Assembly: GCA_020073375.1 (NCBI GenBank)
Contig: JAIQFG010000003.1
Coordinates: 1 to 64,000, forward strand
Length of the DNA: 64,000 nucleotides
Direction of reading: 5' to 3'
Origin: Terriglobia bacterium
GTDB lineage: Bacteria > Acidobacteriota > Terriglobia > Acidiferrales > UBA7541
Positions 6,839 through 43,715 of this stretch are shown here, piece after piece (position 1 is the first letter of the stretch; every line of letters starts with the position of its first letter). Made by a program: the position numbers and the translations under genes. The notes beneath the pieces are model-generated. The model had not been told where the DNA came from, ran no database searches, and saw only the letters and a program-made list of their open reading frames with translations.

Positions 6839-7756
6839 TTGCATCCATCAACCCGAGACGCCGTCCTGATCGTGAATCCCACCGCGGGAGGCGGCCGTCG
6901 TGTTCGGCAACTGGATGATGCGCGGCGCATTTTCCGCGAAGCAGGAATCGAAACCGAGCTCCAGCAAACTACGGCGCCCGGCGAGGCGACCATTCTTGCG
7001 CGCCGCGCCGTGCAGGATTCACGCCAGATGGCCATTGTCTGCGGCGGAGACGGCACGGTGAACGAAGCAGTGAACGGTCTGGCTTGCAGCGAAGTGCCGC
7101 TCGCGGTTCTGCCGTCGGGCACCGCCAACGTGCTGGCGAAAGAACTCGGGCTTCCCTGGAATTTGCCCCGCGCGGCCGCGCGCATTGCTCGCGCGCCGTA
7201 CCGCCGGATCGCGCTCGGCCTGGCCATTCCGGAAAAATCCAGCGGCGAGCCGCGCTATTTTCTGAGCCTTGCCGGCGCCGGCGCCGACGGCGCACTGGTT
7301 TCCGCGGTCCGCCCGGAGATCAAGCTCAAGGCCGGCATTCTCGCGTACTGGCAGGAAGGTTTTCGCCAGCTTTCGCGCTACCAATTCCCGCTTTTCCGCA
7401 CAATGATGGCCGACGGCCCGATCGACGCCTCGATGGTCGTCGTGGGGCGCACCAAAAATTACGGTGGGCCGTTCAAGATCACGACCGAAGCCGATCTTCT
7501 GCGCCCCGAATTCGAGCTCGCCTTTGTGACCACGCGCAGCGCGTGGCGGTATATCGCCTACCTGCCGCTGCTCTGGGCCGGAAAATTGCGCGGCGCGCGC
7601 CACGTCCGTTTCTTCAAGGCCAGTTCCCTGCACTGCGCGTCGACCACCTCATCCCAAGTGCTGATCCAGGTGGATGGAGAACCCGCCGGTTGCCTCCCCG
7701 TAGAATTCCGCATCGTCCCCGACGCCCTCACGCTAGCCATCCCCGATTCGGTGTAG
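6839..7756 (+). CDS. Diacylglycerol/lipid kinase (DAGK catalytic domain, YegS-like)
   Basis: About 305 aa. Near the start is the phosphate-binding block 'VLIVNPTAGGGRR', followed by the kinase motif 'VCGGDGTVNEAVNG' and 'LPSGTANVLAKELGLP', the hallmarks of the DAGK/YegS/sphingosine kinase family. The C-terminal half carries 'SLAGAGADG' and the 'IQVDGEPAG' motif. It should phosphorylate a lipid alcohol at the inner membrane; the substrate cannot be told. The start is uncertain: a TTG at 6839 has GGAG 8 nt upstream; GTG at 6830 and ATG at 6740 are in frame, but the latter adds about 30 residues that do not look like the family. Divergent from ligA. Confidence 0.85.
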   Translation: MHPSTRDAVLIVNPTAGGGRRVRQLDDARRIFREAGIETELQQTTAPGEATILARRAVQDSRQMAIVCGGDGTVNEAVNGLACSEVPLAVLPSGTANVLAKELGLPWNLPRAAARIARAPYRRIALGLAIPEKSSGEPRYFLSLAGAGADGALVSAVRPEIKLKAGILAYWQEGFRQLSRYQFPLFRTMMADGPIDASMVVVGRTKNYGGPFKITTEADLLRPEFELAFVTTRSAWRYIAYLPLLWAGKLRGARHVRFFKASSLHCASTTSSQVLIQVDGEPAGCLPVEFRIVPDALTLAIPDSV

Positions 7757-17481: not shown

Positions 17482-19482
17482 GCGCCGCTGAAACTCGGGC
17501 GAACCGAGCACCAGGCCCGCGATCATCGCGGCATTCACCTGCTTGACCGGATCGTCCAGGCTGGCCTGCAAAATCTGCGGGTCGGTCAATTGTTTTTCGA
17601 GCGTCTCACGCGTTTGCGGCGACACTTGTCCGCCGAGCAGGACGTGAATCGCATGGTCGAGCGTGGCGTGCGGGTCGGCGGCCGCCTGGCCGCCAAGCAA
17701 AGGTTCGATTTCTACCTGCGCCCCGCGCAGGCGATTGGCCGTCAGCGCCAGCGAAAAATTCATGCGATTAAGCAGCGCGCCCGTATTCACCCAGGCCTCG
17801 GCCTTCGCCGAATAGCCTGTGGGAGGCTCGCACTGATACAGCGGCTGGCCGATCCGCGTGGTCCATTGCACGAGCAGGAACGGCACGTCCACGTCCGCGC
17901 CCACCGCGCGTGTGGCGGAAACCACCAGCTCAAACGGTGTCTTGATCTTGGCGCGGTAAACGTCCCTGGACCAGAACTCGGGCGAATAAATCATGGCGCG
18001 CAGGACTTCCCGAATGTCGCCATCCGATTTCTGGAACGTCTGCGCCATGCGATCGACCAACCCGGCCGGCGGATTGTCGGAAACAAACCGCTGCGCCAGC
18101 TCAAAGGAAATGTGGTGCGCGGTATGCGGATCGCGCGCCAGCAGGTCGAGGACTTCCTCGCCGTCCTTCATTCCTCCGCCGTGAATCGCATGGCCCAGGA
18201 CCGTTTTCTTGCCGGTATTGTGGATGCGTTCGTCAAAGAAAAATTCCGGATCGCGGCGCGGCTCGCGAATGGTCCATCCGGTGAAGGCCTTGGCCACGTT
18301 GATGACGTCGTCCTGCGTGTACCCGCCGTCGACGCCGAGCGTATGCAGTTCCATCAATTCGCGGCCGTAATTTTCGTTCAGGCCGCGCTCCATCCTCTTC
18401 CCTTTCGCGTTGGGATCGTTCGGATTCGCATTCGGCCCGCCCTGCCCTTGCGGAAACCGCGGCCTGCCGAACGGGCCGCCGAATCGCTGCTGGCGCATCT
18501 GGCGGCGCTGCTGCTGTTCCTGCTGCAATTTCTGCCAGGCGACGGGGTCGGCGGAGAGCCAGTTGTCGAGATAAAACAGCATGGCCGGGCTTTTCGCCGT
18601 GGCTTCGAGCAGGTCGCGGAATTTGCCCATGGCGTGCGGCCGGATTGCGTCGCGCTCGTAGGCGGTGATGAGCCAGCGGTCGTCGCCCTTGGCGGCGAAC
18701 ACGTTGAAGTGGTTGTACCAGAAATCCACCATCATCTCGTTCAGTTGGCGTTCGCTGTACACCGCGCGCGTCACTTTCGCCATGGAAAGCTCGGCGACGA
18801 TCCGCTGCGGCGTGCGAATTTCCTGGTAATTGAACATGTTGCCCGCGAATCCGTCCTGGCCCTTGCCTCCCCCTTTTTGCTTGCCAGGATCGTTGCCGTC
18901 CATCGCGCCGGTTTCAAAATTGGGCAACCCTTGCGCGTCCGCTTTCTGCATGTCGTTTTGCGGGCCAGCCTGCATGTCGGTTTGCGTCGCCTGCGCCACC
19001 TGCTTGAGGCGCTCCTGCTGCTGCTTGCGGTACTCCTCGACGGTGATGCCCTCGCGCCTCGCGGCCACTTGCGGCTGCGGAAATTCTTCGAGTAGTCTGG
19101 CGGAAGACATTTTCAACGTGGAAAAGCGATCGAGACGAGCATCGAGCGCGGAGTCGTCAATAGATTCGGGATGAAGCTGGCGGTCAATCCACGCTTGCAA
19201 GCCCATTTGCTTGACGCGTTCCAGGTCGCCGGGACGAGCGCCGAATCCCAGCCGGTTGAATGCCTGCATAATGGCTTCGTCATCCGACAAGTCCTGGACG
19301 GGCAGGCCCTTCAGCGCCTTTGAAACATCCGCGGATTTGCTTTTGTCTTTCTTGTTCTTCGCGGCGAGGACCACGGGGGCGGCGAATATGGCGAACGAAA
19401 GCAGAAGCATCGCCGCAATTCCGGTAAGCGAGTTTCGTTGGCTGCGGCGAAGCGGCGTTTTGCGGGATCCGGCTAGTTTCAT
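17479..19482 (-). CDS. DUF1800 family exported protein
   Basis: 667 aa from the ATG at 19482 (GGGAG upstream); an ATG 11 codons earlier is possible. A signal peptide ('MLLLSFAIFAAPVVLA') is followed by 'AFNRLGFGARPGDLERV', the family's N-terminal signature. Later come 'FWYNHFNVFAAKGDDRW', 'NENYGRELMELHTLGVDGGY', 'VAKAFTGWTI' and 'SPEFWSRDVYRAKIKTPFE', all typical. A low-complexity Gln/Gly/Pro-rich insert lies near residues 330-370. Function unknown. It is co-oriented with and upstream of the DUF1501 gene; the pair is probably an operon interrupted only by an inverted repeat. Confidence 0.9.
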   Translation of the reverse strand: MKLAGSRKTPLRRSQRNSLTGIAAMLLLSFAIFAAPVVLAAKNKKDKSKSADVSKALKGLPVQDLSDDEAIMQAFNRLGFGARPGDLERVKQMGLQAWIDRQLHPESIDDSALDARLDRFSTLKMSSARLLEEFPQPQVAARREGITVEEYRKQQQERLKQVAQATQTDMQAGPQNDMQKADAQGLPNFETGAMDGNDPGKQKGGGKGQDGFAGNMFNYQEIRTPQRIVAELSMAKVTRAVYSERQLNEMMVDFWYNHFNVFAAKGDDRWLITAYERDAIRPHAMGKFRDLLEATAKSPAMLFYLDNWLSADPVAWQKLQQEQQQRRQMRQQRFGGPFGRPRFPQGQGGPNANPNDPNAKGKRMERGLNENYGRELMELHTLGVDGGYTQDDVINVAKAFTGWTIREPRRDPEFFFDERIHNTGKKTVLGHAIHGGGMKDGEEVLDLLARDPHTAHHISFELAQRFVSDNPPAGLVDRMAQTFQKSDGDIREVLRAMIYSPEFWSRDVYRAKIKTPFELVVSATRAVGADVDVPFLLVQWTTRIGQPLYQCEPPTGYSAKAEAWVNTGALLNRMNFSLALTANRLRGAQVEIEPLLGGQAAADPHATLDHAIHVLLGGQVSPQTRETLEKQLTDPQILQASLDDPVKQVNAAMIAGLVLGSPEFQRR

Positions 19483-23011: not shown

Positions 23012-23176
23012 AACCACGGATACACACGGATGAACACGGATAAGAAAGATAAACCTGAATTCGATTCCTGAATTTTCTCGAAGAAGCTGATTTTGTCGGT
23101 GCCCTCTGTGTTTTCTGTGTTAAAGACTTTGATCTTGCTCTTTATCCGTGTTGATCAGCGTGAATCCGTGGTTAAA
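23012..23176. repeat. Inverted repeat of the 'CCACGGATNNACACGGAT' type
   Basis: Left arm 'ccacggatacacacggatga' plus 'acacggataa'; right arm 'ttatccgtgttgatcagcgt' plus 'gaatccgtgg'. About 95 bp between. Related to the copies at 40488 and 40705. It separates the ureidopropionase and aminotransferase genes. Confidence 0.85.
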
Positions 23177-39336: not shown

Positions 39337-40575
39337 TTGCCCATACAACAAATACTTCGCGCGCACCCTGCGAAACGCCGCAAGATCCTTATCCCAACCC
39401 GAAACGATGGCGGCCGGGGCTTCCCCGCGCTGAAGCCGCTCGACCGTCGCCGCATTTCCCAGCAGGAAAATCATTTTGCCCACATCGAATTTCCCCGGAT
39501 AAAGTTTTGCGAGCGCCGCGGCAATCTCCAACCCCATGCGCACCGATTGAAACGCCGCGCGATCGGTGACCATGGCCCGCGCCCCCTGGCATGGCTCGCC
39601 CTTGTACAATCCCGAATCCGGCGTGAATCGATCCGCTTCGAATCGCACGCCGGGAATCGCTCGCCCGTTCAGCTCCGCCGCGAATTCGGCGCCCCGAATC
39701 CACGATGCGCCCACGCGTTCCAGCGGATTGTCCGTCCCGCGCCCGACCGATACTCCACCAGCCTGCAGGATTTCCAGGCCCGCATAAAGCACGCCAGCCT
39801 CACTGGAGCGCAAATTGGGAGATGGATTCACCCAGGGCAGACCGGTCTGATCGAAATATTCGCTCCTCCTCCAATCCTGCATTCGAATGACGTGCAGGAC
39901 GACGCCGATCTTTTTTTCCACGTTGAACATTTTTGCCATTTCGCCCAGCGTCATGCCCATCCGCACGGGCATGGGAAAATAGGCCGTGAAACTCGTAAGT
40001 CCGCGGTCGAGCATGGGCCCTTCGATGCGTTCGCCGCCGAGCGGGTCCGGGCGGTCGAGCACGTAGTAGGCGAGATGGTGCGCCGCCGCCGCTTCCATCG
40101 TGTAGCCCATCGTGGCGATATACGTGTAAAAACGGACTCCGGCGTCCTGAATATCGAAGACAAGCGCGTCCAGGCCAGCGAGCATCGCGTCGGTGGGCCG
40201 TTCGGTATCGCCGTAGAGGCTGTAAACAGGCAGCCCGGTGGCCGCGTCGGTCGTGGACAAAACGCGCTCGTCCGCAAGGCCGCGAATTCCATGCTCCGGA
40301 CTGAACAGCGCCACCAGCTTCACGCCCGGCGCATGAGCCAGCAAATCGATCGTGCTGCGCCCGTTGCGGTCCACGCCGGTCTGATTGGTGATCAGCCCGA
40401 CGCGCTTTCCCTTGAGCGGCGCAAAATCCTGCGCCTCCAGCACGTCAATCCCCGTCAGCGTCTGCTGCGCCGCAAACGCCGGACTTTGAATCCACAGATG
40501 AACACAGATAAACACTGATAAGAACATAAGCAATTTCAGGGGATTGAAAATCCGCGAGTGAGAAGGCCCTTTCAT
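39331..40575 (-). CDS. namZ: Exo-beta-N-acetylmuramidase NamZ (DUF1343)
   Basis: 414 aa. Signal peptide with hydrophobic core 'LLMFLSVFICVHLWI' (about residues 15-29) and cleavage near 'PAFAAQ'. DUF1343 landmarks: 'GKRVGLITNQTGVDRNGRST', 'LFSPEHGIRG', 'VFDIQDAGVRFYTYIATMGY', 'DRPDPLGGERIEGPML' and 'LPWVNPSPNLRS'. NamZ removes non-reducing terminal MurNAc from peptidoglycan fragments. The adjacent NagZ/AmiE-like fusion and MurQ make salvage of cell-wall fragments the clear context. The signal-peptide core is encoded by a dispersed DNA repeat. Confidence 0.92.
   Translation of the reverse strand: MKGPSHSRIFNPLKLLMFLSVFICVHLWIQSPAFAAQQTLTGIDVLEAQDFAPLKGKRVGLITNQTGVDRNGRSTIDLLAHAPGVKLVALFSPEHGIRGLADERVLSTTDAATGLPVYSLYGDTERPTDAMLAGLDALVFDIQDAGVRFYTYIATMGYTMEAAAAHHLAYYVLDRPDPLGGERIEGPMLDRGLTSFTAYFPMPVRMGMTLGEMAKMFNVEKKIGVVLHVIRMQDWRRSEYFDQTGLPWVNPSPNLRSSEAGVLYAGLEILQAGGVSVGRGTDNPLERVGASWIRGAEFAAELNGRAIPGVRFEADRFTPDSGLYKGEPCQGARAMVTDRAAFQSVRMGLEIAAALAKLYPGKFDVGKMIFLLGNAATVERLQRGEAPAAIVSGWDKDLAAFRRVRAKYLLYGQQ
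40488..40527 (-). repeat. Dispersed 'ATCCACAGATGAACACAGAT' repeat inside namZ
   Basis: 'atccacagatgaacacagat' followed by 'aaacactgataagaa' lies in the signal-peptide coding part of namZ and reads, on the coding strand, as FLSVFICVHLWI. Its inverted partner is at 40705-40746, outside the gene. Confidence 0.88.
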
Positions 40576-40704
40576 GCTCGTGCTATAGGATACTCACAAC
40601 CCGGCTATCTGCAGGAACGGTTTTGCATCGTGTTTTCACGAGTCTAAACGCTCCAGTCCCTTGGTCCATCCCCAATCCCCATCCGCACGGCTCCGGCGGG
40701 CCTT

Positions 40705-40746
40705 GATCAGCTCTTATCAGTGTTTATCTGTGTCCATCAGTGGATT
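40705..40746 (+). repeat. Inverted partner of the repeat at 40488
   Basis: 'cttatcagtgtttatctgtg' followed by 'tccatcagtggatt' is the near-complement of the namZ-internal copy, 180 bp away in the namZ/nagZ divergent region. Related to the inverted repeat at 23012-23176. Confidence 0.88.
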
Positions 40747-40823: not shown

Positions 40824-43715
40824 ATGCGAAAATTAAGCCGCTGGATTCCACTGCTCGCTGTCTTCCTCATGGCGACCACAAGCCGCACCCAAAAATCTCC
40901 CGCCGCGCCCGCCGCGGCCAACCCGGCAAAACTTTCTCCCGAATCCGAGCGCTGGGTCGCGCAAACGCTCAAGAAAATGTCGCTCGACGAAAAAATCGGG
41001 CAGGTCTTCGCCGTGTGGGCCTACGGCTCGTTCATGTCCACCGAGAGCCAGGATTACCGCGACCTGCTGCACGACGTGGAGCAAAATCACATCGGTTCGT
41101 TCGCCATTCAAACGCAAGGCTCGCCCCTGGGCATCGTTCGCAGCCAGGTGTATCCGACGGCGGTGCTGGTCAACACGCTGCAAAGCCACGCCAAGATTCC
41201 TCTGCTGGTGGCCGCGGATTTTGAGCGCGGCACGTCCATGCGCGTCGAGGAAGGCTCGTCGTTCCCCCATGCCATGGCCGTCGCCGCCACGGGACGCCCC
41301 GAGGACGCCTACACCATGGGCAAGATTACGGCGCTGGAGGGTCGAGCGGTGGGCGTTCCCTGGATTTTCGCGCCGGATGCGGACGTGAACAGCAACCCCG
41401 ATAATCCGATCATCAACACGCGCTCGTTCGGCGAAGATCCCGCGCGTGTTTCCGAATTCGTCGCCGCGTTTATCCGCGGCGTCGAGGAAAACGGCGGCCT
41501 GGCCACGGCCAAACACTTTCCCGGCCACGGCGATACCAGCACCGATTCGCATCTCGACCTGCCAACCGTTACCAGCGACCGCGCGCATCTGGACCGCGTC
41601 GAACTCGCTCCCTTCCGCGCGGCCATTGCCGCCGGAACCAGCACCATCATGACCGGGCACCTTGCCGTGCCCGCTCTCGAGCCCAATCCCGACCTGCCGG
41701 CCACCATGTCTCCCAGAATTTCCACCGACCTGCTGCGCAAGCAAATGGGTTTCCAGGGCCTGGTGGTGACCGACGCGCTCGACATGGGCGGCGTAACGGT
41801 GCGCTACCCTCCCGGCGAAGTCGCGGTGCAATCCATCCTGGCGGGCGCGGATGTGTTACTTGTTCCGCCCGTTCTCGATGCCGCTCTGGCTGCGGTGCGC
41901 GACGCAGTCGCGTCCGGCCGCATCCCGTTGGCCCGCCTGGACGAAGCCGTCACTCGCGTGCTGCGCGCGAAAGCCAGACTCGGACTGAACAAATCGAAAC
42001 TCGTGGACCTGGACGCGCTCGGCGCAAAATTCGACCGCCCGGAATTCGATCGCGCCGCGCTCGACATCGCCGACCGCGGCGTCACGCTGCTCCGCGATGA
42101 CCAGCATATTCTTCCGCTCGATTCGACCAAGCCGCAGCGCGTACTCCTTGTCGGCATTTCCGGGGACAACGATCCCTACCCCGCCGGCAACCTGGAAAAT
42201 GAAATTCGCTGGCGCGTGGATTCGCTCACTTCGCTGCGCATCGACACACGATTCGTGCGCGCGGACATGGTCAAACTGCCTTCGCCAGATACGTACGACG
42301 TTGCCATCGCAGCCGTCTACGTTCGCGTCGCCGACCGCAAGGGCAGCATCGGCCTTCCCGACGACGAAGCCGCCGTGGTCGACCGCCTGCTCGCCGCCGG
42401 AAAGCCCGTGGTCGTTGCCTGCTTCGGCAGCCCGTATCTGGCCGAGCGCTTTCCTGCCGCGAAAACCTGGCTCGCGTCGTTCAGCACGGTGGACACCGCG
42501 CAGCGGGCCATGGGCCGCGCGCTGTTCGCGCAGATAGCTGTTGGCGGCCGCCTCCCCGTGAACATTCCGGGCGTCGCGCCTCTTGGCGCGGGGCTCGATC
42601 TACCCGCGAACCCCATGCAGTTGCGGGAGGCAAGCGAAAAATCCGAGGACAAGCTGCAGCCCGCGTTCGACGTGCTCAATCGCGCGGTCGCCGATCATGC
42701 ATTTCCCGGCGCCGTGCTCGCCGTCGGCTACCGAAACGAACTGGTCGTGCGCGAATTTGGCCGCCAGACCTACGACGCGAAATCGCCTGCCGTGAACGTG
42801 GACACGATTTACGACGCCGCGTCGCTGACCAAATCGGTGGTGACCGCAACGCTCGTGGCCATGCAGGTCGAAGCCGGCCGCATCGCTCTGGATTTGCCCG
42901 TCGCGCGCTACATTCCCGAGTGGAATTCCGGGCCAAATCCCGAATGGCGCAAGGCCGTGACCATCCGCCATCTGCTCACGCACTCTTCCGGCCTCGCCGC
43001 GCACAAGGATTATTTCCTCACGCTGCATTCCCAACGCGAAATGGTCGCCGCCATTTGCCGCGAGCCCCTGGAATACGCACCGGGCTCAAAAACGATCTAC
43101 TCCGATCTGGGATTTATCCTGCTCGGAGAAGTTCTGCAGCGCGCCACAGGCAAAACCGTCGAGCAACTGGCGCGCGAGCGCATCTTCGCGCCCCTGGCGA
43201 TGACCAATACTTTTTTTAATCCCGCGAAATCGCTCGCGGCGCGCATTGCCCCCACGGAAAATGACACCACCTTCCGCAAACGCCTGCTGCAGGGCGAAGT
43301 CGACGACGAAAACGCATTCGCCCTGGGCGGCGCCGGCGGGCACGCCGGGATGTTTTCGACCGCATCCGACCTGGCGGCTTTCTGCCAGATGCTGCTCAAC
43401 GGCGGCATCTACGACCACCAGCGCCTGCTCACCCGCGCGACGATCTCGCAATTCACCGCGCCCCAGCCCCTTTCCGCCGGCACGCGCACGCTGGGCTGGA
43501 TGACGCCCACTCCAAACTCATCGAGCGGCCGCTATTTTTCCGCGCGCAGCTTCGGCCATCTCGGCTTCACAGGAACGTCCATCTGGATCGATCCGGAAAA
43601 GCAACTCTTCGTCATCCTGCTCACCAATCGCGTCAACCCCACCCGCGACAACGACAAAATCACGGCCGTCCGCCCCGCCGTCCATGACGCGGTAATCGAA
43701 GCACTGGCCAAGTAG
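40824..43715 (+). CDS. NagZ-type GH3 beta-N-acetylglucosaminidase fused to a beta-lactamase-fold (AmiE-like) domain
   Basis: 963 aa from the ATG at 40824, with a signal peptide ('WIPLLAVFLMATTS'). Residues ~50-390 are a GH3 catalytic domain with the NagZ signature 'KHFPGHGDTSTDSHLDLP' (about 229-246, His acid/base) and nucleophile Asp in 'GLVVTDALDMGG' (about 317). A GH3 C-terminal domain follows (~410-590). Residues ~610-960 are a serine beta-lactamase/penicillin-binding fold: SxxK in 'DAASLTKSVVT' (S667), 'YSDLGFILLGE' (YxD, about 757) and 'FGHLGFTGTSIWID'. In Bacillus the equivalent YbbD (NagZ) and YbbE (AmiE) are separate. It should act outside the cytoplasm on muropeptides. Confidence 0.92.
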   Translation: MRKLSRWIPLLAVFLMATTSRTQKSPAAPAAANPAKLSPESERWVAQTLKKMSLDEKIGQVFAVWAYGSFMSTESQDYRDLLHDVEQNHIGSFAIQTQGSPLGIVRSQVYPTAVLVNTLQSHAKIPLLVAADFERGTSMRVEEGSSFPHAMAVAATGRPEDAYTMGKITALEGRAVGVPWIFAPDADVNSNPDNPIINTRSFGEDPARVSEFVAAFIRGVEENGGLATAKHFPGHGDTSTDSHLDLPTVTSDRAHLDRVELAPFRAAIAAGTSTIMTGHLAVPALEPNPDLPATMSPRISTDLLRKQMGFQGLVVTDALDMGGVTVRYPPGEVAVQSILAGADVLLVPPVLDAALAAVRDAVASGRIPLARLDEAVTRVLRAKARLGLNKSKLVDLDALGAKFDRPEFDRAALDIADRGVTLLRDDQHILPLDSTKPQRVLLVGISGDNDPYPAGNLENEIRWRVDSLTSLRIDTRFVRADMVKLPSPDTYDVAIAAVYVRVADRKGSIGLPDDEAAVVDRLLAAGKPVVVACFGSPYLAERFPAAKTWLASFSTVDTAQRAMGRALFAQIAVGGRLPVNIPGVAPLGAGLDLPANPMQLREASEKSEDKLQPAFDVLNRAVADHAFPGAVLAVGYRNELVVREFGRQTYDAKSPAVNVDTIYDAASLTKSVVTATLVAMQVEAGRIALDLPVARYIPEWNSGPNPEWRKAVTIRHLLTHSSGLAAHKDYFLTLHSQREMVAAICREPLEYAPGSKTIYSDLGFILLGEVLQRATGKTVEQLARERIFAPLAMTNTFFNPAKSLAARIAPTENDTTFRKRLLQGEVDDENAFALGGAGGHAGMFSTASDLAAFCQMLLNGGIYDHQRLLTRATISQFTAPQPLSAGTRTLGWMTPTPNSSSGRYFSARSFGHLGFTGTSIWIDPEKQLFVILLTNRVNPTRDNDKITAVRPAVHDAVIEALAK

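Follow-up and report, generated by a model that had tools for sequence, protein, structure and literature searches.

Ends of a dispersed inverted-repeat element encode the predicted signal-peptide cores of NamZ and TolB across a Terriglobia genus

The namZ locus and its repeat family

The window analysed here is a 64,000-nucleotide stretch of contig JAIQFG010000003.1 from a Terriglobia bacterium (genome G000). It contains namZ and, divergent from it, a gene for a GH3 glycosidase fused to a beta-lactamase domain. Both NamZ domains score over their Pfam cut-offs (NamZ_N, 276 bits; NamZ_C, 134 bits; PF07075/PF20732), and the GH3 open reading frame is listed from 40788 with an ATG at 40824. The start of namZ carries far the best inverted pair that a repeat search found in the region, consisting of two arms of 35 nt (40489-40523 and 40712-40746) that are 94% complementary and 188 nt apart. 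The inner arm together with base 40524 encodes, on the minus strand, FLSVFICVHLWI, the h-region of the NamZ signal peptide, while the element middle holds the namZ start codon, the n-region and the upstream region. The DNA of the coding arm matches the family at 28/28 consensus positions.

The original prediction held that a dispersed repeat at 40488-40527 encodes the hydrophobic core of this signal peptide and that its inverted partner lies outside the gene at 40705-40746. Both claims stand, the first to within a few bases (40489-40524) and the second with the arm at 40712-40746. It would have been refuted by translation beginning downstream of the repeat; this is not borne out, as the stretch from the arm to the conserved NamZ domain contains no start codon, so that a start below the repeat is not sensible. 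NamZ (MKGPSHSRIFNPLKLLMFLSVFICVHLWIQSPAFA-AQQ) and its counterparts in four congeners have, as judged by eye, a positive n-region, a hydrophobic h-region and an AxA-like c-region. Export by the repeat-encoded signal is inferred from sequence alone, with cleavage sites placed by eye and no signal-peptide predictor run.

Table 1. Features of the namZ locus and of the second element in the window.
Feature	Coordinates	Strand	Basis or remark
namZ, exo-beta-N-acetylmuramidase, 414 aa	39331..40575	-	ATG at 40575; ORF call and Pfam
Predicted signal peptide MKGPSHSRIFNPLKLLMFLSVFICVHLWIQSPAFA	40471..40575	-	n/h/c layout from translation; cleavage before AQQ by eye
Inner arm of inverted pair	40489..40523	-	three tandem 10-bp units ATCNGTGTTN
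Element middle at namZ	40524..40711	.	unrelated to middles of other elements
Outer arm	40712..40746	+	between element middle and divergent GH3 gene
Divergent GH3 glycosidase fused to beta-lactamase domain	40824..43715	+	Glyco_hydro_3, Glyco_hydro_3_C, Beta-lactamase (Pfam)
Second window element, left arm	23014..23041	-	family pattern
Second window element, right arm	23144..23171	+	family pattern

The claim that the repeat is dispersed also holds. In the 5.29-Mb window genome the 20-mer on which the claim rested, CTTATCAGTGTTTATCTGTG, occurs 11 times at no more than one mismatch and ATCNGTGTTNATCNGTG occurs 43 times exactly; the reversed-pattern controls gave 0 in both cases, and shuffled windows gave no match at the threshold that recovers the window copies. 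Most copies are paired as inverted repeats whose orientation does not vary, (TTG)AATCCACAGATGAACACAGATAAACACTGAT - middle - ATCAGTGTTTATCTGTGTTCATCTGTGGATT, with each arm built of three tandem 10-bp units (ATCNGTGTTN). The inverted pair is the normal unit of the family, and sixteen were found with the criteria used; the counts were derived from pattern searches and from 14 retrieved regions. Apart from one gene-bearing pair, the middles are 50-196 nt long and by inspection unrelated to each other, and the typical copy is a short element of about 105-250 bp with inverted ends and a middle without conservation. Apart from the gene-bearing one, the 16 pairs share with MITEs terminal inverted repeats, dispersal in multiple copies, a size within about 70-300 bp and a lack of coding sequence; they differ in having no conserved internal sequence, as judged by inspecting the middles of different elements, and in the lack of a detected target-site duplication. 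The arm TTATCAGTGTTTATCTGTGTTCATCTGTGGATT has, by inspection, neither a GTAG tag nor a self-complementary stem of 20-40 bp and so fails the criterion for REPs and REPINs. At variable positions the left and right arms of one element are more alike than arms of different elements in the same genome (0.63 versus 0.52; reached in 0 of 5000 permutations), which implies that the arms arise or are kept together. The window contains two elements (23014-23171 and 40492-40743), the first of which has an orthologous element in the congener G005. A middle made of TTTTAGG tandem repeats was also observed between arms (L055:6520-6611).

Orthologous intergenic spots in the congeners are occupied by the same family or by other inverted-repeat families, and element copy numbers differ widely between these genomes. 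In a comparison of eight paired sites, only at namZ was this family seen to persist in each of the four other congeners. No clear excess of direct flank matches, and hence no target-site duplication, was detected in 14 + 27 elements. Nor was a clean empty site found, the vacant orthologous spots being taken by other repeat families, and insertion at namZ was not seen as a filled versus an empty site. Many of the genomes compared are draft assemblies or MAGs. We infer that the elements are mobile, and this is strongly suggested; without a target duplication or a clean empty site the chemistry remains undetermined.

The alternative families at the orthologous spots include GTAGCACAGGCTTCAGCCTGTG palindromes of the GTAG type and GTGACTGGTGACTGG arrays of 7-bp units (L052:4242-4374, 7358-7471 and 17920-18025; orthologues in L151, L153, L156, L157 and L161), as though one repeat could take the place of another at preferred sites. 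The congeners also carry more dispersed repeats, of about 75-105 bp and with very many matches, several of them on both strands (L052:16595-16672, L052:8139-8217, L055:11067-11172).

Signal peptides across the genus

In 5/5 congeners with a namZ hit the arm encodes the NamZ h-region, with no change of position or frame. With cleavage placed by eye, the signal peptides end in NPLKLLMFLSVFICVHLWIQSPAFA before AQQ (G000), FLKSILFLSVFISVHPWFLNPAFA before APQ (G005), MVFLFRLFLSVFIYVHPWLQVRASA before PAT (G001), VLSLLFLSAFISVHQWLPIPAQA before ASQ (G003) and LPLRFFLSVFICVHLWFQIPASG before AQT (G002). In all five the arm h-region is followed by a conserved AxA-like site, and the n-regions, which derive from the element middle, differ strongly. 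Arm spellings vary by genome even at this orthologous site. Both arms are kept at namZ in the five congeners, not just the coding one, which suggests that a constraint other than signal coding may act. Between G000 and G005 the outer flanks are 86-90% identical and the middles have no significant similarity (z 1.9). The proposal that the middle has been wholly replaced between all congeners is too strong, because those of G001, G002 and G005 retain weak mutual similarity (z 3.6-5.3), and only the G000 middle is unlike the others.

No arm was found in NamZ from other genera of the taxonomic family, where the protein has an unrelated signal peptide or is the C-terminal portion of a chain that also has a beta-lactamase domain. 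The other condition that would have refuted the original prediction, relatives lacking the repeat yet sharing the signal-peptide sequence, likewise came out in its favour. Comparison of these genomes shows the inverted-pair architecture, the dispersal of the repeat, its in-frame coding across the genus and its absence in other genera. The original prediction that the repeat inserted at the 5' end of namZ and was taken over as an export signal is supported by the relatives, with the insertion event itself unseen. The ancestral N-terminus of namZ is ambiguous because a separate signal is unnecessary in the fused form, and replacement of an ancestral signal is not shown for this gene. In the other genera a beta-lactamase/transpeptidase domain often precedes NamZ within one polypeptide (confirmed with Pfam in L065 and L066); in the window genus it is separate, its gene divergent from that of the GH3-beta-lactamase protein.

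TolB is a stronger case than namZ, since repeat-free signals are visible in sister genera. In G000 a single arm forms the h-region of TolB (MKKNVSSIYQCLSVFICGFAFIFFSTPAAAQDWF; contig C46, L049:3603-4961), a protein with the Pfam domains TolB_N and PD40 that scores 340.5 bits with TIGR02800, just below the cut-off of 343.15. The arm is present in TolB of 6/6 congeners, with a score of 18-21 of 21 informative bases in five and of 16 in G004, where it is decaying. The reading frame of the arm is offset by one from that in namZ, and no inverted partner remains. Outside the genus the arm appears in 0/15 aligned TolB N-termini, which carry ordinary signals instead, e.g. SYLLLASLLFLLASPAAAQDWF. This comparison shows that the repeat replaced the ancestral signal in tolB; export of the protein is predicted from its sequence.

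A third candidate in the window genome is a predicted exported protein of 336 aa (L050 5452-6462, minus strand) with the arm as its h-region (MTNRHHGRRSSLRFLLFLSVYLIVHPWFLASPAAAQ) and no Pfam match. The proposed search for other genes with FLSVFIC-like signals was thus successful, yielding TolB in six congeners and this one unknown protein in G000. The arms at L168 (minus) and L048 (plus) also have open reading frames leading outward; by composition these look like antisense shadows, and they were left uncounted.

In the outward direction the consensus arm contains no stop in any of its three frames, and each of them is hydrophobic (FLSVFICVHLWIQ, SYQCLSVFICGF and LISVYLCSSVDS, with mean hydropathies of 1.9, 1.4 and 1.3); in the inward direction it is hydrophilic and has stops. 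The inverted layout places the outward reading on both sides of the element. An insertion beside a gene offers that gene an h-region whichever frame is used, which explains the recurrence. The suggestion that repeats are a possible route for new secretion signals has a precedent in Yersinia (RU-2/YPO1552).

The GxxExxY gene-bearing form

One inverted pair in G000 (L051 2958-3448) encloses an open reading frame of 132 aa with its ATG inside the left arm. The product is a GxxExxY protein (TIGR04256, 145.6 bits, cut-off 35; PF13366, PDDEXK_3, 138.7 bits, cut-off 22) with a D-ExK motif (ADIVVDGKVIVECK). Its gene is the sole PF13366 gene of this genome, and no gene other than GxxExxY was found inside any G000 pair. 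The sole GxxExxY gene of G002 likewise lies within an arm pair; enclosure by arms was checked for just these two genes in the genus. G003 and G005, both good congener genomes, have elements and no GxxExxY gene.

To place this arrangement in a wider sample, 77 GxxExxY genes, drawn from many bacterial phyla and an archaeal MAG, were searched for inverted repeats between their 250-bp flanks. A score of at least 15 was obtained around 61/77 genes, compared with 1/378 control windows shifted along the same loci and 0/23 namZ genes. The arms differ in sequence and have a common style of 3-4 tandem units of 8-11 bp (30/30 arms tested), as exemplified by GAACGCGGATGACGCGGATTGGGCTGAT and CCACAGAGACACGGAGACACAGAG. 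One fixed arm sequence for all GxxExxY genes is ruled out by these other units, and within the class set arms close to that of namZ occur only in L060, from the window genome, and L092. The more alike two proteins are, the more alike their arms tend to be (Mantel r 0.42, 0/2000 permutations), also for pairs with different taxon labels (r 0.44) and after removal of the GC difference (r 0.41). Both the linkage of GxxExxY to such ends and the covariation are shown by comparison. The covariation is as expected if GxxExxY recognises its own ends; host relatedness is only partly controlled, and there are no binding data. The D-ExK motif is conserved in 73/74 GxxExxY proteins, from which we infer an enzymatic function; no solved relative was found among PDB sequences.

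Gene-bearing and gene-less forms are also seen together in distant genomes. An Anaerolineae genome has 57 arm matches (reversed control 0), with one pair enclosing GxxExxY (490 bp) and about a dozen gene-less pairs of 77-157 bp, and the pattern in a Saprospiraceae genome is similar. The open-access literature searched contained no paper that joins GxxExxY and inverted repeats, its two GxxExxY hits being incidental mentions; subscription papers and preprints were outside the search.

Genes of PF05635, the four-helix-bundle family of 23S intervening-sequence proteins, were observed in the same class to lie between inverted repeats of units with a 7-bp period in 23/30 cases (L251-L280; control windows 1/114), a parallel class to the GxxExxY elements.

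Interpretation, rival explanations and known systems

We consider it likely that these sequences are GxxExxY elements and their gene-less derivatives, recurrently exapted as signal peptides. The repeat would be one end of a short element whose gene-bearing version encodes, between the same ends, GxxExxY, a member of the PD-(D/E)xK nuclease family. The gene-less versions are most likely non-autonomous derivatives, which the nuclease may spread through recognition of the repeated units; mobilisation by GxxExxY is an inference, and no experiment links the protein to movement. The ancestor of the genus would have acquired an element in the interval that separates namZ from the divergent GH3 gene. 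The arm nearest the gene would have become the hydrophobic core of the NamZ signal peptide because the end, read outward, is stop-free and hydrophobic in every frame. The element middle would have supplied the start codon and n-region, and sequence adjoining the arm the cleavage site. The same event would have occurred independently in TolB in another frame.

A bolder reading joins three claims, and taken jointly they seem to us as apt to fail as to hold. First, GxxExxY (PDDEXK_3) proteins may be the mobilising nucleases of an undescribed cross-phylum class of elements, with ends of 3-4 tandem 8-11-bp units and many gene-less derivatives. Second, the PF05635 four-helix-bundle proteins may define a sister class with 7-bp units. 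Third, the family studied here has ends with an outward reading that is open and hydrophobic, and on that account the elements may be recurrent donors of signal-peptide cores to real genes, among them the conserved envelope gene tolB.

The repeat described here looks selfish and has, by prediction, become a functioning targeting signal that is retained across a genus; the genes concerned have known functions and are not hypothetical. How signal peptides arise from repeats can thereby be put to the test in a wild lineage. For GxxExxY, a very widespread and functionally unassigned family, there is now a concrete hypothesis, namely that it recognises its own tandem-unit ends, and the link also offers a candidate explanation for the many 'CACAGAT/CACGGAT'-type repeats of environmental genomes.

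One rival holds that some other enzyme moves the elements, for instance a Y1/HUH (RAYT or TIRYT) transposase, with GxxExxY merely carried along by the ends or resident in them. Acidobacteria, Koribacter included, are known to have TIR-flanked tyrosine transposases with repeated TIR families (PMC3733652), and G003 and G005 have elements without GxxExxY. However, the sole gene-enclosing pair in G000 holds GxxExxY, the protein occurs within such ends across phyla and covaries with the arm, and the arms are not hairpins by themselves, so we think this improbable. We regard as slightly more doubtful the proposal that the pairs are immobile, conserved regulatory or structural sites in intergenic regions, such as terminators, RNA-processing hairpins or protein-binding sites. 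The strong intergenic location, the likeness of arms within an element (0/5000 permutations) and the retention of both namZ arms in five congeners speak for it. Against it are the differing occupancy of orthologous spots, where other repeat families appear instead, the wide differences in copy number, and arm spellings that are genome-specific even at the orthologous namZ site. A NamZ start downstream of the arm, with the upstream frame open by accident, is conceivable in that start codons are unmapped, but it is very improbable given the lack of any start codon before the conserved domain and a frame that stays open in five congeners despite different n-regions. Finally, h-regions are all hydrophobic and leucine-rich, but chance or convergent likeness of an ordinary signal sequence to the repeat is practically ruled out by the inverted partner outside namZ and the use of two frames of the same DNA in namZ and tolB, as well as by the fit of the DNA and not only the peptide (28/28 positions) and the absence of matches in shuffles.

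Our preferred reading, exapted GxxExxY elements, can be set against several known systems. Bacterial MITEs (NEMIS/Correia, RUP, ERIC) are similarly short, dispersed and mostly intergenic, with inverted ends and no coding capacity; here, in contrast, the ends are tandem 10-bp units, the middle is unconserved, target duplications were not detected, and in place of a known transposase the gene-bearing relative has a nuclease-like protein. REPs and REPINs with their RAYTs (GTAG REPs, PMC3733652) are likewise dispersed, paired and intergenic, and GTAG-type repeats occupy some of the same orthologous spots, whereas the arms described here lack the GTAG tag and are not self-complementary hairpins. 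The 23S rRNA intervening sequences with an S23p ORF (PMC4990558) also place a small ORF of unknown function between inverted repeats, but the present elements are intergenic and not in rRNA, contain PF13366 and not PF05635, and have units of 8-11 and not 7 bp.

In-frame selfish repeats are known from Rickettsia, where RPE (Ogata 2000, cited in PMC2229807) is inverted-repeat DNA in frame within conserved protein genes. Those are tolerated inserts in proteins such as guanylate kinase, whereas here the insert supplies a predicted targeting signal. A precedent is the Yersinia YPAL/RU-2 element in YPO1552, for which a MITE contribution to a signal peptide was proposed earlier (Delihas 2007, PMC2759123; 2008, PMC2229807), and the principle that a repeat can become a signal peptide is thus already known. 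The Yersinia case concerns a 168-bp element with a conserved body in a hypothetical protein, conserved within two near-identical species. In the present family only the ends are conserved, the hosts belong to the known families NamZ and TolB, the arms are kept over a genus in two frames, and element-free TolB signals are seen in related genera. What is new is the known families of the host genes, the phylogenetic test provided by the repeat-free TolB signals, the frame-independence of the arm, and the link to GxxExxY.
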